DNA from: Phytoseiulus persimilis
Taxonomy: Eukaryota; Arthropoda; Arachnida; Mesostigmata; Phytoseiidae
DNA: 64,000 bases
Direction of reading: 5' to 3'
Assembly: GCA_037576195.1 (NCBI GenBank)
Contig: CM075101.1
Coordinates: 53,816,001-53,880,000, forward strand
Shown: piece by piece, positions 2-62,647 of the stretch
Layout: every line of letters begins with the position of its first letter
Numbering within the stretch: the stretch's first letter is position 1
Position numbers and translations under genes: made by a program
Notes under the pieces: generated by a model
What the model was told of the DNA's origin: nothing
Seen by the model: only the letters and a program-made list of their open reading frames with translations
Database searches by the model: none

Positions 2-2696
2 GTGGGCGACGGTGACCACTTATCCAACTCATCGAGAATCCATCGCCTCTCAAAGGCCTCCCCGACTTTTCCTTCGACGGTAGGTTCGCGCGGAGGATTC
101 TGTCATGAAACGCATAGACTGCATCGATTATGCCTGCACTCATTCCACTGGCACGGTGTTCCTCCTCTTTCAGTCGGAGGCGCCTCCACAGAACTCTGAA
201 AACGAGACCGTAATTCGAGATCTTTTCGAGCGTGACAATATTGCTGGAAATGCGGCTCCATCAGCGAAGCATCTCAAAACCTTGAAGGAGTTTTTCGGGC
301 TATCGTCTTTCAGGGAGGCGCAATGGAAGGTGATGCCGAGATTTCCGGTTCTTGCTCAGAATTCTACTGTGCTCCTCGGATCCGATCCGAATTCTGCCCA
401 GTTGAAACGAGCGCCTCCGATCGCACTTCTAACCGTTCTTTCCTCCCGCTTATAGATCATATGCTCCATTCTGACTGATCGGAAGGATAACATTGTAGTG
501 ATGGCCACAGGAAGCGGGAAATCACTTTGTTATCAATACCCCGCCGTTTACTTGAAGCAATTGGCCATAGTGATATCGCCCCTTATATCGTTGATGGAAG
601 ATCAAGTCGGTAAACTGGCAACGTTCGGCGTGTCGGCGGCTTTTCTAGGCTCCTCTCAGAAGGAATCAGCGAAGATCAGAGAACAGCTGTTCAATGGAAC
701 TCATAGGCTGCTTTATGTGACTCCGGAGTTCGTGAGCGAGAATATGTCGTTTCTGGAGGATCTCAATCAGTCTGTTGGTATATGTCTGATCGCAATCGAC
801 GAAGCACATTGCGTTTCTCAATGGGGCCACGATTTCCGGCCTGTGTATCGAACTCTTGGTCGGCTCCGTTCACGAGTCAGGACCGTACCGATCGTGGCAT
901 TGACGGCCACAGCAACCGCGAAAATAAGGGAAGATATTGAAGCATCATTGGTTTTGAGAGATGCTTGCATCACTGTGACTTCATTCGACAGACCGAATCT
1001 GTACCTGTCCGTTCGCCCGAAAACAACTCCGGATCGAGATCTGGCCTTGACAGTTAGCCCCGGGGAGGTGACGATCATCTACTGCCAAACACGGGACGAA
1101 ACTGAGCAGCTCTGCTTACTGCTACGCAAACAGAAGCTCTCGGCTCTCGCGTATCATGCCGGTATGTCCACGGGGAAACGAAAAGAGATCCACGAAGCTT
1201 TTATCAATGGAAGCAACCAGATCATTGTCGCGACGATAGCCTTCGGCATGGGAATAGACAAGGCCAATGTCAGAAAAGTTATCCATTATGGCTCCCCAGA
1301 AAATCTGGAAAGCTACTACCAAGCAATCGGTCGCGCTGGTAGAGACGGTGGAGGGTCGGTTTGCATCGCATTTTGGGAGAAGAATGACTTCCAGTTCTAT
1401 CGGAGGTGTCTGCAGGATGTCAATGACGATGGACATCTTCAACATAGGCACGATATGTTAACGAAGATGAAGAACTATCTTGAAAGCGGGGAATGCCGTC
1501 GAAGACTCCTGATCTCTCATTTTAGCGAAGACGAGGGCCGGCTCATCACGGTGAGGGCGAAGTGCTGTGACAACTGCGACGCGGAACTACGAAAAAACGC
1601 ATTCACAGATCGGAAAAAAGACGCGGGCCAACTCGATCTCAGTGAAAATTCTCGCCTGTTTTTGAATGCAGTGAGGAACCTCAAAAACTCGTATGGTTTG
1701 AGGATGATCGCAAAGTACCTCACAGGCAGCGAAGATGTTAAAATGAATGAATATCTGAAATCCGGACGTTATTATGGTTCGGGCAAAGGCTACACTCAGG
1801 AGTACTGGAGAGCCTTGGGGAATCTTTTGACAACCCAAGGTTTCTTGGAGGAAATCACGAAAAAGTCCCATGTCAGGAGATCTCATTTCACGAGCGTATA
1901 CACGATATTAGCAGTGACCGAGAAAGGAGAGGAATGGCTGAGGGATGGCAGAAAATTCATGATGATCCCATCGAAGGAGTTCAGAGCGGTCGAAGACAAG
2001 AGAAATGGAAGAGAGGCACCGGATATCGAACCTGCAGCCACTTTTTTGTTGGAGAAGCGAGTCGCTGACACCATGTCAGTGGTGTCAGATCCAAAACACA
2101 AACTCCTGTACGATGAGCTCGTTGCACTGCGGAATGAAATCGCGAATGATAACGAGCTCCCTGCCTGTAGCGTTTTTGATAACAAAACGTTGTCTCTCAT
2201 GGCAGAGAAATGCCCTCAGACCTTGGAAAACCTGAAACTTTTGCCTGCTATCTCGGCGCGCAGAGCAGATGCCTACGGGACGCAAATCGTGGAGAAAATT
2301 CGAGAATTTTGCAAGAAAAATGAGGTGGCTAGCTTCGATGCTACGAAGAAACTCCTAAACCTCCAAGATCTACCTGGAAAAGTTCCTCAAGACGCTGTCG
2401 AAACTTACATTCTGTTCATGCGCGAAGGAAGGAGCATATCCGAAATTTCTCAACGTTTGGCTGTACAAGAATCGGTCGTCCTAGGGCATTTGACAACTTG
2501 TATGTCTAGAGGAGTTTCTATTGATTTTGGAAGGCTCGGCTATGATCGAGATAAATGTTACCTTGTCAGAGAAGTCCTGGAGAAAACTGGTGCGAGTGCA
2601 ACCATAGGCAAAATAAAGAAGAATCTCGCCGTCGATATGGAATGGGGCGAGATATCTCTGTATCGTGCGTACCTGAATGGAGGCTTTCCCGTTTGA
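2..2696 (+). CDS. WRN: WRN-like RecQ DNA helicase, 5' partial
   Basis: Exons 2-79 (open at the left edge), 174-329 and 456-2696; all junctions are phase 0 with GT..AG borders and a strong pyrimidine tract before 174. About 824 residues are visible. The product is an ATP-dependent 3'-5' helicase acting on forks, recombination intermediates and G-quadruplexes in the nucleus. The sequence shows a Walker A loop (ATGSGKS, about residues 95-101), a DEAH box followed by a CVSQWGHDFRP stretch, the GRAGRDG motif VI, the RecQ-C zinc cysteines (CRRR...CCDNC), an HRDC domain (LYDELVALRNEIA...) and a C-terminal helix-turn-helix module (EISQRLAVQESVVLGHL). HRDC plus this module is the WRN layout. Any N-terminal exonuclease would lie left of the window. 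A 52-base intron (2665-2716) could replace the last residues and extend the protein to the TAA at 2938, which overlaps AATAAA at 2937. Confidence 0.9.
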
Positions 2697-14165: not shown

Positions 14166-17100
14166 ATGTCTGTTCAGCTACTCGAGCATTTCAAGAATGG
14201 AGACGCAAGTGTTGAAGAAATTCTACTCTTTTTGCGTAATAACGACAGCTCGGAGCTCCGTGCAAAATTCAGTGTGGCTGAGATCCCGACGACGGAATTT
14301 GTGGGCGAATTCTTATCTTTTCTGAGACAACAAAGTCGAACTGCGCTTGAGAGTGCACCGAACTCCGAAACATCTGTTCCTCAGACAGCGGTGAGTTCCT
14401 GCGGATCGAATTCTGCTCTACGAGGAAATCTTGGCGGGCATGTGGAGGAAGAAAGTCGAGGACTCGTGTGCAGTGAAGTTCTCTAGTTCGAACTGCTCAC
14501 CAACATAGTTATGGCAATAGAGTTGTGGGGTCGCGGCAGTTGATGCAGCTTCTGTGAGCCGCCAGTCCCGGGTGTTTCCTCGAAAAATCTTCAGCTTCCG
14601 AAACTGTTGCAGCCTCAGCAGGACCCGGCGTCGACGCCGGACCGTTCATCCAAGAACGCTAACTATGGCAGACAAAATCGAGCCAACTCGAACAAGATTT
14701 TACCTGCAGAGCTCACGAGCCAATCATCTAAAAATACCTTCGCGGTGACCAACGATGATTTTCCTCCGCTGGGGGAGGCCGTTACGCCGGTTAAGCGTGA
14801 GTTTCTGAGGTTGGCATGGAAAAATACAGCTTCGCAGGTGGAAAACGCGGGATATCTGTTTTGATGCACCCGGGGTCGAAATAGGGACCAACAATGTCTC
14901 TTGGTTCCATCAGATCGCTGAATGAGATGCGATATCGCTCATGTCTTTCCAGAACAGCATACCAGATCTAGAGGCGTCCCTCTGCAGTCAACCCCAGTCG
15001 CACCGAGAGGGAACCTTGAAGTGGCAGATGCACCGCTCGTTTTGGAAGGTATTTTCAACCGATCGCTTCCTAAAAGTGAAAAATCTGGACGGAAGAGAGC
15101 CTCTCTGACTTCATTCGTGACGCAAGCTCAACAAAAGTACCAGACCACTCAGCGATCGGAGAGTCCGAAGAAGAGAATTGCGCCCATACCGGTGAAAAGA
15201 TGGCAACAGACATCAGAAGCGGATTTCGTTTCTGCTCCGGCAAGTATCCAGCTCAATAATGTATGATTCGACTGATCTCAAAAGTGGACTTGCTGGCCGC
15301 CGTATCGACTCCAGTTAATAGTGAATGTTCTAATTCCTGAACCCTAATTCCAGGTGAGCCATTCCCCGAAAGAAGCCACGAAGCAACAGAGAGAAGTGGT
15401 GCGCAGCATGAACCAAGAGACGAGTGCGACCCATACGGAAGACCTCGATATTCCGCGAATCCGCGACGTTACACAAAAAGAAGCATTGGACCGGATCTCC
15501 CTGCTCTACGCTCGCTGCATCACTTGCAATTTGGTTCCGAACGTCTTCGCGGAGCTGTCTTTCATTTTGCAGCTGCTCGTTATCAAAATCAAGAAGCAAG
15601 CCTCTCGCCCGGATCTTCTACTCGGTACCGCGAGCAACTGCGGATATTTCTCCGCCCAAACTCTATCCAGCTGCAGCGATGTACTCGGTCTCCTGGAACC
15701 GTCGAGCTTGACGTTGATGAAGAACATTCCTCATGTGAAAGACATGTGCACACGTCTTCACGACACCTTGTCCGATATTTGTAGCCAGGAACGGAGCTTC
15801 TCGCTATTGCGGAGCAGCTTCCTCCAAGGAGTTTCGTTCGACGCGAGTGTGGACAGCTCAGAGAACTTCCCGAATGCCAAACTCTTCGGAGCGTTCCGAA
15901 GACAGCGAGACGCTTTCTACGACCTGCTCAAGGAGTGGCAACAGGTAATGATCATGCGGTCATAGGCTGCCGACCTCAATCATTCATTCCCACTCTGGCC
16001 TTGGGAATCCTATCCACCGAGCTCACCTTTCTCACACTCGCTCCTGTTTCCAAACTTTCCAGGTCACTTTCAGCCATCACAACAGGGAAATCGGTCTCAA
16101 TTCGAGAGTCGCATCGATTTTCGATCTGTCGATGGACCCCTGCAATTTGCTCCATCTTGCGAAGCTGTTCGTCCTCCAAATGGTTTCAACGTGTTGCGGT
16201 TGCTTGGAAACCGACGAATTGGGCAACACCTCGGAGAGTTCTCTCCGGGACTTGAGAAACCGAAGTCCGGAGAAGTTCTCGAAGCTACGAGGCCGCTTGG
16301 AAAAACCCGGCGCATCGACTGCCGTGTCGACAAGACATCAATTCACGGGACAACAGGCTTTCTTCTACAACTTCATCTTGGTGGCCAATAGAGCCCAGTT
16401 TCATGAACATCTGAAGAATGTTCTCGTGACCCACCTCATCGAAGAGGACAGGTTCGACATCTCTCCCGAAGACGCCGATACAAGCATCGACAGTCAGATC
16501 AGAGAAGAGCTCTACACATCCCTCTATCGACTGCGTCTCTACGGAGCCTTCCTGGGCCTGCTGGATTTTTTGCCGTACACCTCATCCGCCGAAACGAATC
16601 CGCAAGTTATTGATTCGCAGCGTACGGCTCGAGAGAACGTTCTCCCGCGGATCGACGTCGAGCGCTGTTTGCGCGACTCCCTCGAACAGAAACGCTTGCT
16701 TCCAACTTTATCATGGGTTTCCACTTACTTTTCCATGGCGGACACCGCTGTTGCAGGGCTCCCGGCCTACGAGAGCAGCCTGAAGCTGTTGAACTCGATA
16801 TTCCTGTCCAGCGTATCGAATCGACCTTTCTACTTACTCAACAGATTGCTAATCGGTTGGATCTTCCAAAATCTCCAAATTTCCATCAGTTTCAACTCGA
16901 TGAAAGTGCCAGTGGAAGCACAACCCGAAATCGAAGCATTCGTTGACGTTCAGCTGATTCATATGCTGTGTCCTTTCCTGGCGAACTTGAAACTCATCCT
17001 CGCGGAGTACTACTGTCTGCCGTCGATCGAGGCGAGGAAAATAGCCCCTGTTACTGCACCCGATGCAACATTCGAACCCTCTGGCATGATCGCGAAGCTA

Positions 17101-17991
17101 GAAGACGCATTCTTCTTCGCGCACCCCGCATCAGTGAAGAAAACCATCACTTTCGTGATCGAACGTGTTCCTGCGAACGTTGTGAAATCGATGAAGCCCG
17201 TCTTGGTGGAACAGTTCCGTGAAGAAGTGAGGAGAGAGATTGAGGACCTGAAGCGGAGCGGTGAAGAGCTCACCCCTCAGCTCAGTGATACGCTTTCTTT
17301 CAATTTGTGTCCCAGGTTTCAACTGAAAGCCGAAAATGTGATCATGCCCGCCTGCGACGAGCAAGCAGGCAAACTTCTCGAGGAACTTCTCAGACCTGAC
17401 TGCACCAAAGAAGGAATCCTCGTCGCGAAGAAGATCAGCGCCAGGCAGTATCACGTGCGAGTTCTTCAATGGATACGATGCCACATTTCGAAGGACTATA
17501 TCGACAAGGAGCTCAAAGATATCTCGAAGTCTGTCGATCATAAGCCTCAAGCCGTTGGGGATTGTTTCGAAGAACGGTCCCTCGAAAACCATCGCACCAG
17601 CGATTCCGTCAATTACATTATAGATTCGCTAGAGGAACTCCTCCGTAGGGCTTTGGCCGATGAGATACCTACATGGCCAGAGTGTTTGGACAAAACTAAA
17701 CGCACAATGCGGAACCGGAAGGAATGGAAGCCAGCCCCATGGGCCGCTGTTTGTCACATGCTCGTCGATCTCGGCTCAGTGTCCATTGCTAGGTACGTCA
17801 ACTTGGAAATCGTGGAGGCCGTCATCCGGATTCTCGACGAGGCGAACTACGTCGGCAACCACCACGTAGTCGACTCACCGAGGAACCGATACATAATCGA
17901 CAGATTCTGTCACAAAAACCGTGTTGAAGCGAAACTGCTACTCTCAGAGTACCAGAAGAGGCTCGATGTTTTAGAAAACAGTGTGCGTTAA
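14166..17991 (+). CDS. CDAN1: Codanin-1
   Basis: Exons 14166-14390, 14595-14796, 14953-15260, 15354-15944 and 16063-17991 (1084 residues; human about 1227). Phases agree at every junction, including C|AA at the second intron. Codanin-1 holds histone chaperone ASF1 in the cytoplasm and partners CDIN1; human mutations cause congenital dyserythropoietic anaemia I. Matching blocks: an N-terminal helix ending FVGEFLSFLRQQSR (human ..FVPFLLNFLREQS), a disordered basic region with NDDFPPLGEAVTPVKR (human LEEFPPVGS), LLYARCITCNLVPNVFAEL (human LVYSSCIAENLVPNLFLEL), FRRQRDAFYDLLKEWQ, FTGQQAFFYNFILVANRAQFHEHL, LYGAFLGLLDFLPY and LLNRLLIGWIFQNL. The start ATG at 14166 precedes the conserved N-terminal helix. 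The last exon alone holds about 640 codons. Confidence 0.93.
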
Positions 17992-25340: not shown

Positions 25341-28300
25341 TCACCGTGCGCGGAAAACTCCGATGAGAGCGACCAGGAGCGCGGGCAGGATACACGGAAG
25401 TGATGCCGTTGATTTTCTCGAGGCGTTGATTTCATTCAATTCTTCCTCCACTGTAAATGAAAGAAGGGTGATCAAGAGGGGAGCGAAGATAACTGCAAAC
25501 GTCGAGATCCGATGATGACGTCCGACACCGATCGAGTTGAGACCGATCAACTCCTCGAAAAGATGACTCACGTGTTTTACATGGCTTGTAGAAAGTTCTT
25601 ATCAACTGCAGCCCAGTTCGGGTTTGTTTCCTGACGCTCCCGAGGCCAATGAGGTTTCCAAACTCGATCTGCCACCTTCGGAGAGAATCGAAGCAAAACG
25701 TGACTATCCATGTCAGATCGGTGTTTTCCAAAAACTCGATAGCTCATGGATTGGACCGTCTCACCTGTGAGCATCCGTCCCGAAAAAGTGGACAGTCATC
25801 TGGACGCATTGCCCAGAAAGAATTTCCCGCTCAGCCTGACGATCTGACTGAATGACCCAATCGGTAGCATTCAGGAGTTCTCGCATGTGATTCATGAACT
25901 GCCCGGTTGTGAATCCAGGGAACTTCCTGACAGTGACGTGTCGGATCAAATGGATGTCCAGCTTGAGATTTGCGCACCCGATCTTATTTGACGACCCCTC
26001 CTTTCCAAAGATAACCACCGATCTCCCGAGGACTGCGGAACAATGCACGTCACTTCGGGTCCGGAAGTAGATATATACTTGAATGACTTCGATGCATCGA
26101 CTTGGACAACGAATATGGAAAACTCACCAGAATAGTTGCCCACCAGCGGCAAGTTCGGATCCACAAATGTTGCCCTGCCAGATTGACCGATCACGAGATG
26201 GCCATGCTTCCCGGTGAGATCACCCATTTCGCAACGCAGAGGATTCGATGGAATGCAATCTGCTTTGTAACTGTCCGAAGACGCTATCGCCAGATAGGGG
26301 TTCCACCTGAGACGATGGGATGTGTCAATCGAGAAGCCAGGCTCCCGAACAACGTCAGACTCTGTATTGGGATGCGAGGAATATTGTCGTACCTGTAGCC
26401 GGCGGCGATACACCGCACGTTTTCGTTGGGTTCGACGGCATCGTGTCCCACTTGGTTGACGAAAATAGCCCAATCGTGACCCCGAGTGAGATTCCGATCG
26501 TACTTCCCGGGATATCTGAGATCGACTTCGATAAAAGTCTCAGAGGACGATCCATCCTTGTACTCCAACTGCCTCAGTCTCACATATCCTTGGACGTAGC
26601 CCTTGGGATCATCGAAATTGGCAATCGCAACCAATTCTCTCCCGTCCTCGCGACGTATCTCGGGCAGGATCGTCCCACACGCCCACCGTTGATTTCGTTC
26701 TTTGAGATGGACGACTACCGATCTTCCTATTATCGAGTTCTTGCCATACAGATTGAGGTTGTTGTCGAGGAGAGAGCTCTGTTCGACATTCTTGTTGTCG
26801 AGAGTGCCGTACTTCCCGGAGAGATCGCCTACTTCGTATTGATCGACCGAGCCGATTCCGGGCGGTGGAATGAAGCCCGTATCGAGTCCGTGAGGATTGA
26901 AGTGACCTCGAACCGAATCGTCGTTACAGGGGAAGGCTGAAACGAATTTGATTGATCACGGCGGTGTTGAACAGGCCTTTTCTAATCGCCTAGAGAATCT
27001 TCGCCCGTTCCATTCGCGCAGACCGGACCAGAAAAATAGAATCCACCCACAGAGCGTGATGACTCACATTTTTCCATGGGTACTGGCAGCTCGTGTACAT
27101 GATAACCGGAGGCGTACTTCTCCAGGCCGACAAGATCGATATGCACCTCACTCAGATCGAATTCCGATTCTTGCTTGAAAACAATGCTCCCCGATACGTT
27201 GGACGGTATTCCTGCGCCGTACGCCCAATGTCTCACAGCCGCTATTATTGGATGCGTTGGTGATATCGTTGTGCAAGCCAAGCGATCCCCTCTGTGCGGC
27301 GGAGCTTGGTCATCGTGAACGACGAGAGAACTGCAAGAGAATGCCGATTCGATGATCCAGAGCTGCGGAACAGGAAAATATTCGGAATTCCCCCAACCCG
27401 TACCAGAACTCGTCCTGGATTCCTCTCGCCGCCTGACTCACCGATGCAGTATGCTATGCGGCCCGCTCAGAGGGAGGTTCACATCAGTGTAGAAGAATTT
27501 ATTCATGATTGTCCCCTTCTTCGCTGTGATCGCGATACGACCCGACTTGCTGCTTAGGTCCCCGACAGAGCATCGGAACGCGTTTCCAGGGTGACAAACT
27601 TTCTCTCGTTGCTTGCGGACCCCAACCTCGAAGGGGTTGTAATCCTGGCCTGCGCTCTCACATCTAGAACGGCAGCCGCTCGTTAGGATTGAACGGAATG
27701 TTGGAGCCGACCGAAACACTGTCGATATAAGTGGGAACAACCTTTTGGTCCAGTTGTAGAAATCCTTTCCTGGAGGATCCAAGTGAATATCGAAACGATG
27801 TCCCTCTGTAGAGTTCTGAGTTCCATCCGCGTAAGCCAATTCAGCGAGAACAGTGGTTTCTGCCCAAGGATTGTTTATTTCTTGCCGGAAAACAACTTTG
27901 CCGACTATCGGGTAGAAGAAAGTTGCGACCGCTGTCGTGGTTTCGGTTGGATACGTTATCGAGGAGCAGATCCAACGAGTACCGTCCACCTGGAATTGTT
28001 GGAATTCATTTGTCGACTCGCTCGCTCAGTCATCAATACTAGACTCTCGGACACAGCTAATGATCAACCAAGTTCGGTGGACGGCCCGCGACTTTCCCAC
28101 CCTACTGGAGCTCCTGCTCACCTGATGAATGACTATGGAACGACCGATGACGCTGTTCGATCCGAAGAGTGGAAGGTTGAAATCGACATACATTGCTTCG
28201 TGTGAGTCTCCCATGGATCCCTGCATCAGGAACCCGTGTTTGCCTGACAGATCTCCAACTTGGTATTCGTCATTCGTTCCTGTAATCGTCGGAGCGGTTA

Positions 28301-31284
28301 AGAATGAATCTAGAATGTCAGAGGTATACGTAAGGCGCTCTGAAATCCCGATGGTTCCTCACCGAATCCGGGAAGAGGACTCTTGTTCCGGTCGACCGCG
28401 AACGGATTGAAGTTGTCGCCCACATTAGCTATTGAACATCTCTCCGCGCCAAGTGGTAGGGCCGCTGAATTGACAGGGAAATCGTGCACGTGGTAGGCCC
28501 CGCCTCGTCCGCGCAGACCTTAAAGTTGGCGGGAAATAACCTGAGTGGGAATCTGGGACGAATCGTCGAGCGGAATGCCTCTAGTCGAGGAATTGAGAGA
28601 ACGAAAATCGAAATAACGAAAGAGATGCGTGAATGATATTCAGAGCTCTCAGCTTCCGGATGATGAAGTGTTTGGCACCACCACGGGTTTTCCTCGAAAT
28701 CTTAAAGGATGAGCCATTGGTTCACTGAGCTTTCGGAGTACCTTGTAGTTGGATCTTGAGCACTGTGGGGTCCATTTTGTATCTCTGCTCCATTTGGATC
28801 GTGCCCCTCACGCCGTCGGAATCGAAGTACGTGAGAACTTTCCGTGAAGGTACGATGTTGAGCTTCGCGCACGCCATGATCCGGAAGGGATTGGCTTTCT
28901 CGTAAATCGCGAGGTACAGCGATCTGTAGCCGTCGAGATGATTCAGTGCCAAATTCGTGTCAACGTAGAACTTCTTGGAATATCTGGAAGGAAAAATCAG
29001 CTCATGCTCGTGTTTCGTTCCACTGGAACTACAGAAAATCGGATCATAATCATTTTCGACCTAGATGATGCAGCCCGCACAATTCCAATGATGATATCCG
29101 ATTCTAATGATGAAATTTGCTCATGGTCGCCGGATTCGGAGGTGACTAACGAGGAGAACAAAGAGGAACCATCATGGGGAGTGAATTATCGCCAATAATA
29201 TCCGAGCCTTATCTTTGCGAACGATTTATTGGAAGAACGTGACTCTGCTATTCCTGGAAAATCTCCAACTCAAACAGGCTCAATCCCATTGAGCGGGACG
29301 GGCGTTTCAGAAGTTCTATCGTTTTCTTCACTTGAAATCTTTTTACGGCTCACGGAGCGACGAAATTTACTATTTGAATCGGAGATACCGGCAACAAAAA
29401 AAAAAACAATATTTCGGCCGAATCTTCTCGTATTCGAGCTGAGATTAATTCTACTCGTAAACCTGTTTGGAAAAAACTCTCACATTATCATGGATAAGCC
29501 AGCGTGGGAACCAGCACCAGGCACGCCGGGACAGCACCAGTGAGTGCGTAGGCGGGCTTCTTGCCCCGTGAATAAGGTACCGACCGGGTCAATGAGATTT
29601 TCACGCTCTGTGTAGGATCGCCCGATCGGGCTCAGCAAGTGCCCAAGCCACAAATAGCGGAGACGAAAGAGCCGTATGGAACTTGCAACGGAACTCATGA
29701 CTGCCAGTGCCACAATGGGAATCAAAAGCATGAATTCGTTGAGCCCCACCCAACACGCCAATGCAATTCAATTCTCAGTTCTCCATCTGTGCGCCCATGA
29801 ATCTGCCGCCGTGAAGAATAGATTTGCGACGTTTCCGCGCGGGCTCGATTAGTCACGCGATTCGTTTCCTTCAAACCAAGTATCTGAGGTACGTTGGAGC
29901 AGATGCGACCTTGAAGAATCGAACTCACGCTTCGCTTGGGTCGACGACAATCGGAGGCAATCGGCGAGCCATTCGGCTGGGTTCTCTAGGCGAGAATCCG
30001 AGCGAAAACATCCGAGGGGCTCGGAAAACGGGAGATTTGACTCACCTTGAGTTTGTGGGGGCAACTGTTATCTCTCCGTGTTTGCGGATCATATCTCCTA
30101 GACGGCAACGACCGTGGTCTTTACCGTTGCACGCTTCTTCGGAGAACTGTTGGCCTTTATTGTCGGGATCGAACACGATCTGGAGAAAATCACATCGCTT
30201 CTCCGACCTCTTGGAAGCGTCGGCGTCGAGAATATCCGAGATCAAGATCCGCCAGTCATACCTGTTCCGAGTGAATGCAAACTGTTCGAAACACAGACTC
30301 CCTCACATGATAGCAAATTTCTGTCCGAAACCCCTGCTGAACCTACCTCCCAGCTGGCATGTAGTCGTCGCCGGTGTGGAAGAGGTTAGTGAAAATCGTC
30401 GTGATTCCCGGTTCCGATTGACGAAAAATCACTTGTCCTGGAGATGTCAAAAATTAAGAATATCATTGTGATTCGAAATGTCGGCTGAATGTTCCGAGCA
30501 GTGTGAAGACTAACCGGCAACTGGTATGTGGAAAGTGGCTTCTGCAGTCCGAATGTTCCCGTCGTCTTGCACGTTCCCGCAAGCCCGCTGATCTCCCTGG
30601 GTCGAATCGCTCGCCCTTAGAAGCAAGGCGCGGCCCCAAATTGAATTGGGACCATCGAGTTCGATTTCCGAATCGTAGAAGATGATTTCGGACATATTCC
30701 CGGGCGGTCCGATCTCGATAATCCCGTGCCGTCGACCGAGATCATGGCGCCTGTGGAATAATTTTTCGTCCATGATTCTCAGACAGGAATTTCGCAGCCA
30801 GCGATCTGGATGCTCGGGGGAACGCTGCGGAAACTTACGCGCCCGATGTCATTCTGATGGATCTACGTCATCGAAACGCCAAGCTTGTCATTTCGCTCCG
30901 AGCGGAACATTTACATCCCGACAAGATCGATTCAGGTTGAGTTTTATGGATCAGTGCCTCGCAGATTGAAGAAATTCAACACATCCGAGGAGCACTTCAA
31001 CAAACTTACGTTCTGCCAAGTTCACTCAAGGCACAGGGCTGCTTTTGATCGAAGAACACTGGGAACTCGTGAAGGAACCACGAATACCTCGCGCGTCGGG
31101 CGTCTTCCCCCGATGTCATCAGATGAATAGTGATCGTCACGTTCCGGATTGAAGGATTTTGTTGTTCGAATCGGACGTGCCCTTTCAGACCACCCATGTT
31201 GAGGGGCACGTACATTGAGATCTGAGCATCGCATACCGCGAGCAATGCCGGCAAAAGGAGCCATACTGTAAAAGAAGCGAGCAT
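25341..31284 (-). CDS. Secreted, GPI-anchored copper-only SOD-repeat protein (six SOD-like domains)
   Basis: Sixteen exons: 31284-31010, 30777-30515, 30437-30347, 30261-30046, 29985-29929, 28983-28742, 28518-28363, 28279-28122, 27989-27742, 27663-27442, 27330-27068, 26936-26393, 26306-26128, 26032-25765, 25675-25572, 25450-25341. Every phase matches; 1131 residues. Signal peptide (MLASFTVWLLLPALLAVCDA), six Cu/Zn-SOD-like repeats (about 30-175, 180-345, 355-495, 520-665, 685-820, 850-1000), a helical tail, then INASRKSTAS plus a hydrophobic end, a GPI signal. Repeat 5 keeps the copper ligands (YHVHE H720/H722, GHFNPHG H742, GRSVVVH H807), catalytic-type Arg 814 and C734/C817. Zinc ligands and electrostatic loop are missing throughout. 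This is the CSRP layout; it likely handles copper or superoxide at the cell surface. The 30777 acceptor is the weakest junction. Confidence 0.88.
28984..29928 (-). other. Large intron of the SOD-repeat gene with a possible alternative last exon
   Basis: At 945 bases this is the longest intron in the gene; flanking exons join in phase (GC|A). It holds a minus-strand open frame from 29761 to 29480 (MACWVGLNEFMLLIPIVALAV...) and, in another frame, a stretch ending at 29488 that reads KKPAYALTGAVPACLVLVP followed by a short tail and stop. This resembles a hydrophobic GPI-signal tail. An A-rich tract lies at 29395-29407. Whether either frame is used is unknown. Confidence 0.35.
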
Positions 31285-44548: not shown

Positions 44549-45195
44549 GTGAAGGGTCTCAAGATTAACCGAGCCGCGCGGCGTTCCAGGACGTCTTCTT
44601 TCACTGATGTTCATTTCAAGAACGCTGCGGATGCCGTGGGCAGAGGAATTGGCGCAAGGGAAGCCGCCAGAGCCCCCGCCGTCCCACGGTCAACAATGTC
44701 TAGGAAGATGTTGAGCGGCAAATTAGAGAATAACATGTGGTCCTGAGCCTGTATCCGGCGAGCTAGAGGACGTTATCGTCGAATGGGAGAAGAACGTTGC
44801 TCGTATAGCAATTCCCCCCCCCCCCCCCCCCCCCCCCCCCTGCTGTGTCAGCGGCGTCTCATCCCGACAGCAACACTGCTGGCTCGGAGATCCGTGCCGT
44901 CGTCTTACGTCGACCCTCTTACAGAGAGGTTTTGCTCCCTAGAGTTCGACTCAGAGTGGATGTAGGGTCCAGTGGTCCTCCACAGCTTCCAGGGCAACAT
45001 ATGTCTCCCGTGATAGACCGAGGTGTCAAGTTACCCGTCCAGCTGTCTCTGGACAAACATCAATCCCGCCGAAGTATGGAGGTCACCTCGTTTTGTGGAG
45101 TGAAGGGAATCATCTCGATGATCCCAATTTCGGATTCGACGCATGTACTGCAGCCGTCTGATTGTGGTCTGTCGAAGCCGCCCAAGGACTTTTGA
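44549..45195 (+). pseudogene. Tigger/pogo-type transposase relic
   Basis: A helix-turn-helix of the pipsqueak/CENP-B type (AADAVGRGIGAREAARAPAVPRSTMSRK read as two adjoining blocks, 44549-44746) is followed in another frame by the DDE-domain end: SLDKHQSRRSMEVTSFCGVK, GIISMIPISDSTHVLQPSDC and GLSKPPKDF (to 45195). This matches Tigger/pogo elements (LDGHxSHxS..., ...STHxLQPxDVGxF.PLK). A run of 27 C lies between the two parts, and most of the catalytic core is missing, so the copy is dead. Confidence 0.7.
44814..44840. repeat. Homopolymer run of 27 C
   Basis: Uninterrupted C tract inside the Tigger-type relic. Its true length in the genome is uncertain, since such runs are error-prone in sequencing. 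Confidence 0.9.
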
Positions 45196-49885: not shown

Positions 49886-52800
49886 TCAGTTGGTTGTCTT
49901 GAGAACGGTGTCGTCGAGCAGGATTTCTATTTCTTTCTTCAAATCTTCCGCTTCCGGAATGTCCAAGGCTTTCAAGCAATACCTGAGCGCCGTCCCTGAA
50001 TCTCCGATGGCATGTAAGTATCGCGCATACGTCAAATACAATCCTGGAGGGCGGAATTCCTCTGGAAAACAAGAGAGTCATTCCGATTCCTTCATTGACC
50101 TCAGTCGACCGAATAGGAATGAGAAGCCCTCCACACTGATGTAAGTACGTACTTTTGTTCTTTTCCCACTGCAGCTCCAATCCAGCATCTGCAGCAGCTT
50201 CGGTGAGCAGTACGGCTCGCTCAATCATCTGGTTCGAAGCTAGCATCTCAACGCAGCGTACGATCTCACCGATGGAGAGCAGCGCTAGGGCCGAACGACA
50301 ACGTTGATTGGTTCCCCCGAGTTGCAAATGATCGGCCCACTTTTTCACCACTTCGCACACCTCTTCCGCGGCCAGAGAGCACTGAAGGAAAGATTTCCAT
50401 GTCATTGACAGCCTTCATCGTCCGAATCGGATCGCTCTGATCCAAGCTTGAATTCAAGTCAGCATCAGTGTGCGAGGAGTGGAGGAAGTCACTTACCTTC
50501 GCAAGCCAGATACTCTTATCCCACTGTCCGTTACTTTGCAAATACCTACACGCATCGAGAGCTTTGTGGATTACGCAGAGGAGTTGAACTCCCAGTTCGG
50601 TATCTCCGGAAGCTATCAGATTCGTTGCAACCAGCTTAACAACCGACTGCGACTTGTTCTCCTTCTTCAAACAAGCAATCAGACACGCGCTGTGGAAGAA
50701 ACTCCGAATCTGTAGCCAAGTTTCGATTTCGATTGGGACGCCATCGGATGGACGAGAACGTTTGATTAGATTGTTCACTCACCGCAGCGCATCGTGGGTG
50801 AAAAGCTCATTCGGAGGCTCAGTTTCAAGTAGCAACTGCACTGCTCGATCAGCGTCACCTAAGAGAAGGAATTCGTCGATGCAGAGCTGGGTGAGCTGGT
50901 AATTGCTACCGCGTTTGCTCTCATGCAGCAAGGCCCTTTCGAGTTGCTGCTGTCGGTACTCGTCTTGAGGAAGGAGAAGGTCGAACGAAGTCGGCAAACG
51001 GCGCAGGGGATCGACCCTGGATTTGAACATCGTCCAGAAGCGGATTGCTTCTTCATCGCCGAATAGTTGAGCTAGAATGAATGCTCTTCGGGCGGTTCGA
51101 GATTTACTAAGGTCTGCCAAAACATCAGCGTCAAGATCGGCCAACATTCCCCGAACTAGGACGGCGTCTTCGCGCAGCTTGAAATCTTTGGTAGCTTCAT
51201 AAACATCCAAACTGCTATTGTCTTCGCATAGATGCTGCAAGACAGATTTCAAATGGAATGTTGAGTTTGGACTCAGAATCGACGGTAGAAAAGGCATCTC
51301 TGAAATGGTAAGATATCCACTGTAGCAGGAAGTTGAAAACTCGGACTAATGCAGCGACTATTCCGTCCCACCACCCTTTCAAAGTGTACCTTCGAAGAAC
51401 AGTTCAGCGATCGGCGTGGAGCATTGCTTCAACTCCATGTCCATGACTGAGATGTTACCATTCTGCCAACCCAGGAGGGGACTGACGGAGTCGGCCCAGT
51501 CCACATGACAGATTTCGCCCTTGCTTATTCTGAGCGATGTGAGCCGCTTCATCTGGAAATTTGAAAAATCGTAAGCAAGTCGTTGGGGATTTCAACGAGA
51601 GATATTCCGCCGTTTGGTGTCTTGTGGGACCGTACCGTATGATCAGAAGTCGCTTCCCAAAGCTCGACCGCATCGAGGAAGAGAACTATCAATTTCATGT
51701 TCCCTCGCCCGGGCGCGAATGCCACCTTCTTAACAGTTCCTCTCTGACTCGGTGTCGTTTCGCTCTTCTTCGTGGTTATGTCCCACAAACTCAAGTTCCC
51801 ATCCAAGTCACCGAGTACCAGTTTGTCGGCCTTCCACGCGGTGCAGGTTATAGCCGATGACACCGGTACGAGAATCCGCATGTTACTCTTCAATACCGAG
51901 CCTTCCACGGTGAAGAAACACACCTACATGGGAGAGATGACTTTGATTGAAACCTCGCTCTTCGTGCTTTCTCTTTGAATGAACCGATCCATGAATTCCC
52001 GGGCTGAACGTACTTTACTCTGCGAATCCACCGCAAGAAAATGCTCTTTGACAAAACTGCGGGAGGATTTCTCGTCGCAAATGTCGTTGGTGGGTGGCTT
52101 CAGGAATATCGGGTCGATCTGTTTCGAGATTTCCTCGCCCTGTTCGCTGTGAATAACATCCGAGTTCGTTTCCAGCTCGTCGATCCGAGGGACTGGACCA
52201 GTCTTTGGAAAGAGGCCAGAGTCGCCGTGATCTCAACTCACCTGTGCTTCCTTTTCAGAGCCGACTTGGGACTCCATTCGAGGCAGGTTATATTCTTGAA
52301 GTTTTGCGAGACCGTAGACAACAATGTCAAGTTCGTGAGGTCCCATAGCTCGAAAGGTTGCTCTTTGAACGCTACAATGAAGTACTGTCTGCGGATAACG
52401 ACGAGAGACGGTGAGTTCGCAGAAGCCCTGATGGATGGGATCATGAATGTCTCAGGGGAAACCACTTACCCATGTTTGGACACAGCTAGAAGCTCGATTG
52501 GCTTCTCATCGGCTCTGTCGGTTCGGAGAGCTTTGACACGTCCCGACGTCACTTCGGTCAGGAATAATTCATTCTTGACATTGCTGTTCTGCTGGTTCGT
52601 TACCTGTAGAATTTCGAAAATGAGACGCTCGTTCAGCGTGACCGGCTGAGGGACACTCGTGTTCCCGCTCAACCAGACTTGCCTGAAGCGTGGCATTGGC
52701 GAAAGACAGGAAACTCGTCAAACTGGTCCATTCGATCCCCCTTACGGGAGTTGTGTGTACACAGATATTTCGTTCCACTTGGCCAGTTGCAACATTGATC

Positions 52801-55178
52801 ACTTGAATGTTTCCTGTGGCTACCGCACAAGCCAGCAGAGGACGATAAGTTCGCCAGTTCTTGAATGTGACTGGTGGGCACATCTTCATGCAATGAGGCA
52901 CCGTAGATAAAGCTTCAAAGTTGCTTGAAATTACCAAACGAGGTTTCTCCTGCGGGTTGAGAGCGATTGTTAACTTTTGCGGCCTCGATCGATGAGCGCG
53001 CTTGGAAACGACAGACGTTTGGTATTCGCGCTTCCACACTTTTACAGAAAACAACGAACCGTGGCAGAGTCAATTGCTCTGTCTCGCAACTGGTAGAACA
53101 GGGTTCTGCCGTCCATGAGAACAACAGCCGCCCTGCACTCAGTCACGGGTGAAATAGCGAACGCTACGATTTTGGAGTTCCTGTGTATCATTCTATAAGC
53201 TTCCGAGGTACAAACGAGCTCATACTGCACATCCTGATCGTGGCGAATTTCGTTTGAGGGGTAGGTGACATCAGAGCTCTTCCGGTTTTCTGAAATCCGC
53301 GCACGGGCGTAACTTCGAGTGTGACTCGAGCTCGTTCTAGAGTCGGAATCTCACCTGGATGCGTACTCGACACCCAGATGGACCGTGGCCCGACTATCCG
53401 TGCTTTACCTTGATTCTTATCACATAGTTTCCTCTGACGCACGGTTATCACTCCAGTTTCGTGAAGACACAGGAGTCGACCACTGTTGCGACACTCTCGC
53501 ACGGCGAAGAACCCGATATGATTGCGTTCTGTGTGTACAGTGCCTATGACCTGGAAGGTAGCGTGTGAGTTTCCTCGTGTTTCCTCCTACCATCGCCTGG
53601 AACGCGTTTGACGTGCTCACAGATTCTTGTGACTCGCTGACATGAGCATGTTATGCAGCGGAGCTCTCGCATCGTAAGAGGATTCCGTTGTGGGAGACCA
53701 ACCTGCTGTATACAAATGTCGACGATCACAATGTGCTTCTGATAAATGAAAAAAAGTTGATTTCTGAAGGCTGCTGAATGCATCATACTCAGACACTCCG
53801 TGCCGTCTCGTTCTTCTGTTTCGTGTTCGCGCGGATTGCCTTGAGTTCCACGGGCTGATCCACCCTGGAACATGGCCTGAACACCTGTGAGATGGAGGAA
53901 TCGGCAAAAATCAGTTGGTCCCTTAGCTCGGATGATCCTCGAGGAATAAAGACTCCTGAATCGGACAAGGTTCCCATGGTCGTTTATCTCACTCACCGCT
54001 GAGCAATCTGCTTTTACGGGGGTTCTCTGTCGGTGTTTGTGCCGCGCTTCCGGTTCCCGGTGGCGGAGGTATCGTGATTTCCAATTTCTTGAGCGGACTC
54101 TGCGGCGGTCTTGCTGGAGTGAGATCATCAAGGAGCCATATGTATTCGAGGGAAACGACTGCGGAAAAAAATATAATCCAGAGGTCACAAATGCAGGGGC
54201 GACGCGTCTATGAGCAGAAATCACTCCATTTTCTTAACAGGGTGAAAGTGATCGAGCAGATGAATATTACAAGCGATAGCAGCCTCGCTGAAAGGATCAA
54301 CGCTGAATGCAGTGAATTTCCCGTTCACATCCTTGCTGAAATCTTTCTTCCACACGAGTACTTCACGTTCGGTGTCCCAGAGCACGAGATACGATTGTTC
54401 GTACAGCACGAGCAGCAGAGGGTACGAAGCGTCGTTGAATGCCATCCAGTGCATGTCTATAGAATATCAATTCCGTTAGGGGAGCCGGAACACACGCTGA
54501 ACACCCAGTCCTTTTCTTCCGATCGTGGGGAACGCAGATAAGTAGGGAGTGAAGTTGCTAGGAGAACATGCAACTTGTTTCTACCGCGCTCACCGATAAC
54601 GGTTTTGTGACCGGGCTGAGCCAGCTCCGCCTTGATGTCTCCGGTGGCAACATTCCACACCGTTACGACACCACAGACATCAGCCGCAGCTAAACGGAGG
54701 TTATAGGGCCGCACCTAGAGGATCAAGGTGTCGAAATTTCAGTTGAAGTCCCACCAGCAGTCAACAACCGCCCGCGGATCCTGATCTTCTCGGTACTCAC
54801 GCGGTCGTGGTAGTGTAAATGACGCGACCAACGAATCCTCGTGACGTCATGTCTCTGCCCGCCATGCAACGTTTGCACCAAAGCTGTCCCGGCACACCCT
54901 ACCACGACGATGTTGTTCTGACTTCCATAAGCCAAGAGGCCATGCGAACTCCTGCAAGGAGGCAACCCATTAAACCGTCACCCTGGAGCCACATCGGCCT
55001 TGATCGGGCTCATCGCAGCCAGTGTCTCTGAGAATCGAGCGAACGGTTTCGTTCCCTCATTATTCCCAAGGAACGAGGTTCCTGAAGGGGAATCCTCTCG
55101 AGCACGATCTCGGCGGCTCAGGCGAAAACCCGCCGCCAGGCTGGTTCCACGAGAGAAACGAAACTCTCCAGAATGCAT
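49886..55178 (-). CDS. WDR11: WD repeat-containing protein 11
   Basis: Eighteen exons: 55178-54982, 54951-54801, 54714-54594, 54456-54271, 54158-53997, 53884-53703, 53550-53409, 53289-53060, 52949-52683, 52603-52470, 52388-52242, 52146-52014, 51923-51636, 51552-51390, 51299-50783, 50701-50497, 50381-50153, 50061-49886. All phases match; 1209 residues (human 1224). WDR11 forms a complex with FAM91A1 for golgin-mediated vesicle tethering at the trans-Golgi and affects ciliogenesis. Matches: GLLAYGSQNNIVVV, RLAAADVCGVVTVWNVATGD, VPVRGIEWTSLTSFLSFAN-type TTPVRGIEWTSLTSFLSFAN, TCTAWKADKLVLGDLDGNL and, in the C-terminal solenoid, LLLGDADRAVQLLLET, VVKLVATNLIASGD and LGVQLLCVIHKALDACRYLQ. The first residues are the least certain. 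Exon 9 ends in a GC donor (CAG|GCAAGT at 52682). AATAAA (minus) lies near 49835. Confidence 0.93.
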
Positions 55179-60800: not shown

Positions 60801-61918
60801 CGTTATCCGTTGAACGCCAAACCGATGCGGAAACCCGGGTCGAGTTCGCGGGCTTCGTATTTCCTTCCGAGAGGAGAAAATGTGATAGATCTGAGCGGAG
60901 CTTGGTTCTCTCGCGTTTCCATGATTCGGGCGGTAGCTGCAAGATCGGATCTAGCTCGCTGCTTTGGCCGGGGCGAGCAGCAAGCTTCGGGCTTCGATGA
61001 ATTAGAACTCGATGTGTCTGGGAAGAAAGCGAGCCATACTCCGCGATGAACCCCGCGTTCGGCACGAATTGTGTCGGAAAATTCGCGACATGCATCTGTC
61101 CACGACAATCTTAGATGCCTCGAGGAAGATTCCACCGCAAACTCGTCTCCGTGGACGGGATCGTCAGAGAGCTTCGAATAGTTATTCATGGAGGAGATTC
61201 CCCAACATTCAACCATTGATGATAGGAGGATCACACGGCGGTGCAGAGGGAGAAGATTGGATTCCCCGATACACTATCTCAGCATACTCGCCGCTGGAAG
61301 GAATGTGCCATATATTGATGAGGATGAGCCAAAAGCCATTCGCACTTCTAGCTTCCATGCAAAATTATTCCACCGGGTCCACTCATCTTCAGTCGAAGCA
61401 CTGAATGCTTCGTGATATTTGGAGTGTCTCTTCCAAAAATTTAATGTCCTGAGTCGAGTTTCACCCCGGCTTTTGTCTCCGCCTCGAAGTTCGCCGCACT
61501 CTTGCGGCTCAATGCATAATCTCAAAGCCATCCTAGTCGAAGATTTTGGGGGAACTTGTGGGTGAACTGTTTAAACCATGATATTGCTGTATACTTCGTC
61601 ATCTCGACGAGAGACATCCCAACTCTCATCGTTGATTCGCGCCTGTTCCGTGCTTGAATCTCGCACCGCAATAGGCTTCCACACTTCAGCCTGGCAGTTG
61701 GTAGCCTAGTAGCCAGCCCGCGAATCAGCAGACCGCCTGGCGGCGGCCGGTCCCTTTAATAATGCGTTCATTTGTATGTTGTGGAGGCACCACAACATAC
61801 TGCACCCGGTACGCAGACCGACCGTTGCTCGAATAGTGTCTGAATCGAGGGTTTCAGTTTCGTGAGTGAGAGCATTCAGAGAAACGCCGAGAATCGGAAT
61901 CGAGGCCAGTTACCAGGA
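57858..61918. other. Long region with only doubtful coding patches
   Basis: Plus frames at 57889-58107, 58417-58761 (Ser/Lys-rich, ending MHDNLSSFLESLLSGSVP) and 59752-60261 (EEGETMEDDDREALDKDADI) could be exons of an unknown plus-strand gene. A plus frame at about 59110-59370 (YRLRYRPLVDTRDRVRSPDV) is also open. On the minus strand, 60667-60317 contains LCYQCSTWLPARSIDRHLNQ, which resembles a UBZ4/RAD18-type zinc finger lacking its last Cys. I cannot assemble any of these. The stretch just before 61919 is the SMNDC1 leader. Confidence 0.3.
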
Positions 61919-62647
61919 ATGGCGGACAAGGAAGAACTTCAGTCACAATTGGAAACATACAATGTGCAGCTCCAGCAAGTTGAAGCCGCACTGGCTTCGA
62001 ACCCAGACGATCCGGACCTCAAAAAACTTCGCGAAGACATTCTGGAAGTGTTGGCCCTGACGAGAAACCTATTAGGAGATCAACCGACCCGTGAGAACTC
62101 GGAGGATTCCGGTCAAGGAGTTTCCAGCGTTGGGAAGTGGCAAGTTGGAGACAAAGTGCTCGCCCCTTGGAATGAGGATGGAAATCACTATGAAGCCACA
62201 GTTACGTCGATATCCGGAGATGGTCTGGCGACCGTTAGTTTCGACGCATATACTGCGCACGAAACGTGCAATCTCAACGAGCTACGACCCCGCAGCACTC
62301 TGATGCCAAAAGGCAGCAAAAAAGCTCAATTGGCTGCACAAAAGGAGTACAAGAAACAGAAAAATCTCAAGAAGAAAGAGAGACTCAAGGAAATCGAACA
62401 GCAAAGAGAAGCGGACAAAAATAAATGGCAGAGCTTCAATAGCAAAGCTTTGCACAAGAAAAAAGGAGTAACGAAGAAGAGCATTTTCGCTACACCTGAA
62501 ACCGTGGACGGCCGGGTTGGTATCGGTACCTGTGGCATAGCTGATAAACCGATGACTGAGTACCAGCAAGTCGAAAAACACCAGGCTGTCAAGAAAACCA
62601 CGCTCCAACATCCTTACTCGTTGCCGGGACCCGCAGGACTGAATTAG
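61919..62647 (+). CDS. SMNDC1: Survival motor neuron domain-containing protein 1 (splicing factor SPF30)
   Basis: A single uninterrupted frame of 242 residues (human 238). SPF30 is a nuclear U2 snRNP-associated factor needed for assembly of the mature spliceosome; its Tudor domain binds symmetric dimethylarginine on Sm proteins. The sequence shows an N-terminal helical region (LETYNVQLQQVEAALASNPD), a Tudor domain (WQVGDKVLAPWNEDGNHYEA ... LATVSFDAY), a Lys/Glu-rich coiled region, and the diagnostic C-terminal KKSIFATPETVDGRVGIGTC followed by GIADKPMTEYQ. The ATG at 61919 was chosen because it aligns with the family start (M-x-x-K/D-x-E-L); the frame is open further up to a GTG at 61862. AATAAA at 62788. 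Confidence 0.95.
   Translation: MADKEELQSQLETYNVQLQQVEAALASNPDDPDLKKLREDILEVLALTRNLLGDQPTRENSEDSGQGVSSVGKWQVGDKVLAPWNEDGNHYEATVTSISGDGLATVSFDAYTAHETCNLNELRPRSTLMPKGSKKAQLAAQKEYKKQKNLKKKERLKEIEQQREADKNKWQSFNSKALHKKKGVTKKSIFATPETVDGRVGIGTCGIADKPMTEYQQVEKHQAVKKTTLQHPYSLPGPAGLN

Follow-up and report, generated by a model that had tools for sequence, protein, structure and literature searches.

The 64,000-nt window analyzed here (the whole stretch of DNA under study, positions 53,816,001 to 53,880,000 of contig CM075101.1) carries on its minus strand what is very probably a real gene, encoding an arthropod secreted, perhaps membrane-anchored protein of six superoxide dismutase (SOD)-like domains (repeats R1 to R6). 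The gene opens with an ATG at position 31284 and closes with a stop codon at 25343-25341, which reproduces exactly the extent 25341..31284 proposed by a first-pass annotation. Exons were found by reading the three frames together with splice signals and were then joined, all junctions being predicted. The resulting model comprises 15 exons and 14 introns (Table 1); the 14 introns are all GT-AG, every junction is in phase and there are no internal stops. From its N-terminus, the protein presents a hydrophobic leader, six SOD-like repeats, a region of ~97 residues and a hydrophobic tail. The earlier proposal of 16 exons joined in phase from leader to tail was sound as to the joining but not as to the count, as 15 exons suffice. 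Each repeat spans at least one junction, yet retains its two cysteines and their spacing, and exons 5 and 11 both join the end of one repeat to the start of the next.

The product is 1103 residues long if exon 2 starts at 30750 and 1112 residues long if it starts at 30777, both starts being in phase, and the 1131 residues announced at first were not recovered. This choice touches nine residues of repeat 1. Based on a matrix built from the other 13 acceptors, the acceptor for 30750 scores 3.6 (top 13% of AGs) versus 0.9 (top 35%) for 30777; an earlier matrix that included the 30777 acceptor itself gave 5.7 for 30777 versus 4.7 for 30750. The 30777 start restores nine residues of the short zinc loop of repeat 1 and better matches the spacing of the repeats. 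We adopted the 1112-residue version (124 kDa) because it lengthens this loop, and residue numbers and downstream analyses refer to it. In leave-one-out scoring, 13 of the 14 donors were in the top 8% of GTs, with the donor of intron 5 at 12.8%, and six of the 14 acceptors were in the top 5% of AGs.

Candidate exons were also considered within introns. A phase-neutral candidate of 57 nt (29985-29929, intron 4) would add 19 residues inside repeat 2 as a 16th exon; it was rejected because the other repeats have no insert at that point of the alignment, and we infer that it is the extra exon of the first-pass annotation (1131 = 1112 + 19). In-phase candidates of at least 20 nt were listed for intron 1 (one, of 24 nt) and for the 1062-nt intron 4 (39). 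None was added, because neither the intron 1 candidate nor any of the 12 intron 4 candidates shown out of 39 restores a conserved piece of a repeat. For exon 14, the acceptor ATGGATAG led to a frame without an anchor and was replaced by CTCTCCGAAG, which is in phase with the last acceptor and was chosen partly because this reading yields a tail.

The spliced protein matched the Pfam family Sod_Cu over five stretches with an E-value of 1.4e-45 (155 bits, cut-off 28.9), and no other Pfam family was found above cut-off. Scanned singly, five of the six repeats matched Sod_Cu (R5 1.4e-15, R3 2.9e-10, R4 5.2e-9, R6 1.8e-5 and R1 0.0043), three of them beyond the cut-off of 28.9 bits. The first-pass annotation had named Sod_Cu matches in at least four repeats as the point on which its reading would turn; four repeats match at E < 0.001 and a fifth at 0.0043. 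When compared to a profile of R3-R6 with hhalign, R1 and R2 scored 57.8 and 48.8, the best of 60 shuffles each reaching 19.3 and 18.6, and the count of six SOD repeats is upheld by these profile comparisons together with the Pfam matches. Among the 15 pairs of repeats, 14 scored above all 300 shuffles; the pair R2-R3 did not, its score being reached by 13 of 300. Both cysteine positions of the SOD disulfide are filled in all six repeats, and the bond is predicted. The strand motif first described for the repeats is present in the protein, but it was drawn too strictly: its segment ...GRS-VVH is degenerate in R1, R2 and R6 (GRALLLR, YRSLYLA and GRSVVIF). As a control, seven open reading frames (ORFs) of the window in other frames (five on the opposite strand, two on the minus strand) gave no Pfam match at E up to 0.1. 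The same was true of an eighth ORF (25949-26539), but it holds exon 12 in frame and is therefore no control; a lone exon of repeat 6 is thus not detected in this way.

A sequence search of solved structures returned chains of Cu-only SOD5 as the top four matches (6.1e-11 to 6.9e-10), ahead of Cu/Zn SODs. The SOD5 alignment is split in two between repeat 5 (first part) and repeat 3 (second part), whereas 3l9e, the only Cu/Zn SOD with a displayed alignment, spans most of repeat 5. When the profile of all six repeats was used instead, SOD5 was found with 1.5e-12, behind a tandem SOD1 construct that scores twice.

Ligand columns were set by motif on repeat 5 and then taken from a MAFFT alignment; we take their numbering to be that of human SOD1. 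In repeat 5, all four copper histidines (H46, H48, H63 and H120) are present, along with the Glu/Asp pair of the Cu-only signature, Arg143 and the two cysteines. Repeat 3 presents H46, H48, H120, the Asp and the Arg, with Asn at position 63 and Gln in place of Glu. Repeat 4 has H120, the Arg, the Asp and a His in the HVH region, where the alignment is ambiguous, and Asp at position 63. In repeats 1 and 6, a His fills the H48 column but positions 46, 63 and 120 lack one, and repeat 2 has no copper histidine at all. A complete copper site is found in exactly one of the six repeats, in agreement with the trait of many, though not all, CSRP proteins that some repeats keep an intact site; the earlier label "copper-only" fits repeat 5 by its ligands and does not extend to the other five. 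Because every other repeat has lost at least one of the ligands, the Glu/Asp pair or the Arg, this single sequence suggests that selection may act on the copper site of repeat 5. Zinc histidines are absent from all six repeats: from R1 to R6, the H80 position is occupied by R, R, Q, S, E and E and the H71 position (12 back from D83) by T, C, P, C, P and C. Loop VII is short: in R1 to R6, the H120 and C146 positions are separated by 11, 12, 8, 13, 9 and 10 residues, versus 25 in a canonical SOD of the same genome. The electrostatic loop is lost in all six repeats.

The protein contains 22 cysteines: one in the leader, one in the tail, two per repeat, an extra pair in R2, R4 and R6 only, and a pair in the C-terminal region. 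The extra pair has the form C-x7-C, and the Asp of GD(L/M) follows its second cysteine at a distance of four residues. In an ungapped count backwards from this Asp, the two cysteines fall at or beside the SOD1 zinc ligands H71 and H80; the hidden Markov model alignment moves this correspondence by one. We infer that the pair may form a disulfide in place of zinc. Odd and even repeats also separate in sequence comparisons. Pairwise scores always gave a best partner of the same parity (R1-R3, R2-R4, R3-R5 and R4-R6), and the tree of the repeats, in which R1 and R2 were flagged as long branches, splits odd from even with support of 100/98. Approximately unbiased tests gave p = 0.008 against the R3+R4 alternative and p = 0.007 against R5+R6. 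The split was found again without the zinc loop (94/93; LG+G4 88/93), without R1 and R2 (99/96) and from the part before the first cysteine (89/91). It was not seen in the C-terminal half alone (64/55), where R6 groups with R5, and a label-shuffle control was weak with six rows, 51/500 and 40/500 shuffles being as low. The first introns of R1 and R6 are both in phase 2, seven and five residues past the first cysteine, which crosses the odd/even grouping. Intron positions mostly differ between repeats and therefore give no support for recent duplication. Since odd and even repeats form two groups, the simplest reading of these sequences suggests three successive copies of a two-domain unit.

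The leader (residues 1-20) has a mean hydropathy of 1.9. Past it, the most hydrophobic 18-mer is found at residues 1092-1109, followed only by RAR. This hydrophobic C-terminus is plausible as a glycosylphosphatidylinositol (GPI) signal, and a very short membrane anchor would fit as well. Published extracts (all reports cited in this text are used in extract) describe a C-terminal transmembrane segment in SOD4 proteins (PMC10416458) and CSRPs that are GPI-anchored or secreted (PMC13017621). Ten N-glycosylation sequons are present in the protein. The C-terminal region, scanned together with the tail, gave no Pfam match; its one match to solved structures (E 0.89) is unconvincing, and its score of 13.4 against the SOD profile lies within those of shuffles (up to 16.5).

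Table 1. Repeats, C-terminal region and predicted exons of the gene (window positions; residues of the 1112-residue version).
Feature	Positions	Strand	Residues	Description
Repeat 1	30543..31224	-	21-170	copper site lost, short zinc loop
Repeat 2	28839..30542	-	171-330	copper site lost
Repeat 3	27939..28838	-	331-484	H46, H48, H120 and Arg kept, H63 replaced by Asn
Repeat 4	27252..27938	-	485-650	partial copper site
Repeat 5	26641..27251	-	651-810	complete copper site, Glu/Asp signature, Arg
Repeat 6	25950..26640	-	811-980	copper site lost
C-terminal region	25449..25949	-	981-1077	putative membrane-proximal stretch of ~97 residues between repeat 6 and tail, two cysteines
Exon 1	31010..31284	-		leader (31284-31225; residues 1-20, probably signal peptide) and first half of repeat 1; donor AAC/GTAAGT
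Exon 2	30515..30777	-		second half of repeat 1, start of repeat 2; start 30750 or 30777
Exon 3	30347..30437	-		repeat 2
Exon 4	30046..30261	-		repeat 2, extra C-x7-C (residues 254/262)
Exon 5	28742..28983	-		end of repeat 2, start of repeat 3; preceded by 1062-nt intron
Exon 6	28363..28518	-		repeat 3, HVH copper ligands; weak acceptor (CCAACTTTAAG/G)
Exon 7	28122..28279	-		repeat 3 (QVGDLSGKHG ... SIVIH)
Exon 8	27742..27989	-		end of repeat 3, first half of repeat 4
Exon 9	27442..27663	-		repeat 4, extra C-x7-C (residues 573/581)
Exon 10	27068..27330	-		end of repeat 4, first half of repeat 5 (YHVHELPV)
Exon 11	26393..26936	-		second half of repeat 5 (HFNP, EVGDL, VVVH, RWAC), first half of repeat 6
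Exon 12	26128..26306	-		repeat 6, extra C-x7-C (residues 910/918)
Exon 13	25765..26032	-		end of repeat 6, start of C-terminal region
Exon 14	25572..25675	-		C-terminal region (Cys 1074)
Exon 15	25341..25450	-		polar linker, hydrophobic tail, stop; top-ranked acceptor TTTCATTTACAG (top 0.3% of window AGs)

The genome (181 Mb, 127 contigs) was searched with repeats 3, 4 and 5 and with repeat 6 in its first half, and this search revealed no second locus: the nine matches at E <= 0.1 all lie at the present gene, only the best candidates having been scored. A search for Sod_Cu gave five matches, one at the present locus and the other four, in pieces, at three further places (C2:44.67 Mb, C1:29.74 Mb and C1:35.20 Mb), which carry HVH and H-x-N-P motifs as well as zinc-loop histidines. 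A single-exon Cu/Zn SOD-like frame was observed on the plus strand of L015 (782-1378), with an N-terminal hydrophobic segment, HVH, H-x-N-P and the zinc-loop His; its sequence would fit a further SOD of this genome, either secreted or signal-anchored. The genome also gave 112 matches to Chitin_bind_4, a family that marks arthropod cuticle, in support of an arthropod host; none of 14 control genomes gave a match, although these include at least four microbes and are of little weight for other animals. Outside of the gene, we scanned 20 of the 159 ORFs of at least 100 residues in the window, and these 20 gave no functional clue, the neighbors identified being ordinary genes. One open exon of 746 codons (456-2693, plus strand) contains DEAD, Helicase_C, RecQ zinc-binding, RQC, HRDC and HTH_40 domains and corresponds to a RecQ helicase, presumably WRN-like by its domain order. 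A large exon at 15952-17988 (plus strand) contains a Codanin-1 C-terminal domain, and weak WDR11 matches (under the Pfam cut-off) and an SMN Tudor domain (over it) were seen at 50269-53069 (minus strand) and 61844-62644 (plus strand). Antisense to exon 11 runs an open frame of 209 codons (26311-26937, plus strand) with no Pfam match, which is probably a by-product of codon usage. Finally, the window has a GC content near 50% and contains 27 consecutive C at 44814-44840.

The gene is a member of the known CSRP/Rsod family and not a new system. The family call made in the first-pass annotation was borne out by the six repeats (CSRPs having 4-12 tandem Cu-only-SOD-like domains), by the loss of the zinc site and of loop VII, and by Cu-only SOD5 as the best solved-structure match by sequence. 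The family had also been called poorly described, which is true of its function only, as its members are known (Drosophila Rsod CG31028, honeybee Rsod, Bombyx SOD6 and vertebrate SOD4). Rsod was annotated in insects in 2006; the honeybee protein has 1100 residues, 18 introns and a function given as unknown, and pernin, a homologue from mussel, is described as devoid of SOD activity and as a possible carrier of divalent metals (PMC1847502). A 2022 survey reported Rsod across animals with 2-6 SOD domains, often with a signal peptide or a membrane region (PMC9524095), and CSRPs have been described as known only from aquatic species and winged insects in the extract of PMC7730656. Recombinant oyster CSRP has SOD activity (via PMC13017621) and frog sod4 is required for tail regeneration (PMC10416458). 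The CSRPs of Bombyx and tardigrades are described as having no copper site, and no SOD function is predicted for them (PMC13017621). Among the literature matches listed, none concerns a chelicerate CSRP/Rsod by title or start of abstract, which does not prove absence in print.

With animal CSRP/Rsod/SOD4/CUSR proteins (Drosophila CG31028, honeybee Rsod, Bombyx SOD6, Xenopus sod4 and oyster CSRP), the present protein shares a leader, tandem SOD-like domains (six in many), an anchor-like C-terminus, the loss of the zinc site and of the electrostatic loop, a length of about 1100 residues and many introns. It is intermediate in its copper sites, with one (repeat 5) versus four in oyster (repeats 3-6) and none in Bombyx and tardigrades (PMC13017621). 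The C-x7-C pair of even repeats and the odd/even grouping do not appear in the extracts of the family descriptions, with which they were compared by description alone. Fungal Cu-only SOD5 (from Candida albicans according to PMC13017621) has in common with repeat 5 the Glu/Asp signature, HVH, H-F-N-P and a short loop VII. It is, however, a single-domain enzyme, whereas the present protein has six domains, five of them without a complete copper site, and the fungal type is excluded on this trait. Cu/Zn SODs (SOD1/SOD3) share the SOD-like domain and, with repeat 5, the catalytic copper histidines, the disulfide cysteines and the Arg; they differ in having an electrostatic loop and zinc ligands at H71 and H80, all of which are gone from the six repeats.

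From the sequence, we give roughly even credence to the reading that this arthropod CSRP/Rsod protein is a surface-displayed SOD with one copper, in repeat 5, on a mostly inert scaffold. The protein would be displayed on the cell surface and loaded with copper from outside the cell, and superoxide would be dismutated at the lone complete and open copper site of repeat 5. The other five repeats would serve mainly as folded scaffold or spacer, the even ones being stapled by the extra disulfide where zinc was lost. Several observations weigh against this reading. Repeat 2 gave no Pfam match when scanned singly. The structural model of exon 11, of moderate confidence (predicted local distance difference test score 62.7), gave no Foldseek match at E <= 0.001. 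The acceptors of introns 1, 3, 5, 8 and 12 are only in the top 35-70% of AGs by leave-one-out scoring. Finally, the arthropod member may be no enzyme at all, because the CSRPs of Bombyx and tardigrades are reported as copper-less and pernin as inactive.

This last point leads to a possible but more doubtful alternative, according to which the protein is a CSRP without meaningful enzyme activity, whose repeats serve outside the cell as a structural, metal-carrying or immune-recognition array in the manner of oyster dominin, mussel pernin and the copper-less CSRPs of Bombyx and tardigrades, with the ligands of repeat 5 as a relic. The lack of a complete copper site in five of the six repeats is consistent with such a role, as are the six-repeat copper-less CSRPs of Bombyx and tardigrades (PMC13017621), pernin without SOD activity, and the Sod_Cu matches with SOD motifs at three other places of the genome. 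A relic, however, does not readily account for repeat 5, which retains four copper ligands, the Glu/Asp pair and the Arg when each of the other repeats lost at least one of them.

The ligands of repeat 3 (H, H, N and H, with Q/D and the Arg) invite a further alternative, in which the protein binds or relays copper, repeat 3 holding Cu(I) and handing it to repeat 5 or buffering for it. Reduced SOD1 keeps Cu(I) via its three remaining histidines. In Cu-only SODs, the Glu orients the bridging histidine (PMC13017621, section 6), and the losses of H63 and of the Glu in repeat 3 may be functionally linked because of this role. Simple decay would also remove both residues, however, and the pattern comes from one sequence only, which leaves a copper relay quite unlikely. 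A broader scheme, unlikely as a whole, would have CSRPs made of three copies of a unit that pairs a "metal" domain (odd) with a "strut" domain (even), the latter with a disulfide in the role formerly played by zinc. The arthropod lineage at hand would have reduced its copper function to the catalytic repeat 5, and repeat 3, without its bridging His and orienting Glu, would be a three-His Cu(I) reservoir for repeat 5.

An error in part of the exon chain, whether from two transcripts, an overlooked exon or a gene in decay, is very improbable: the degenerate repeat 1 with its short zinc loop, the two in-phase acceptors of exon 2, the weak acceptor of intron 5, the 1062-nt intron 4 and the exon 14 acceptor picked partly for its tail would all allow it, but all 14 introns have GT-AG ends and keep the phase without in-frame stops, repeats that span junctions retain their cysteines and spacing, exons 5 and 11 bridge neighboring repeats, and the length is near that of honeybee Rsod (1100 amino acids).

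With the surface-displayed SOD carrying a single copper as our preferred reading, what deserves to be retained is the presence of a single copper site and the cysteine pattern that sets even repeats apart from odd ones. The CSRP/Rsod family is old among animals and its functional data are scant; its arthropod examples are copper-less in the extract of PMC13017621. A member with exactly one complete copper site would be a natural test of single-site activity and of the purpose of the other repeats. If the host is a mite, CSRPs would be distributed more widely than the aquatic animals and winged insects reported so far (PMC7730656). The odd/even pattern offers a concrete hypothesis for how the array may have originated and for how a SOD domain may fold without zinc.
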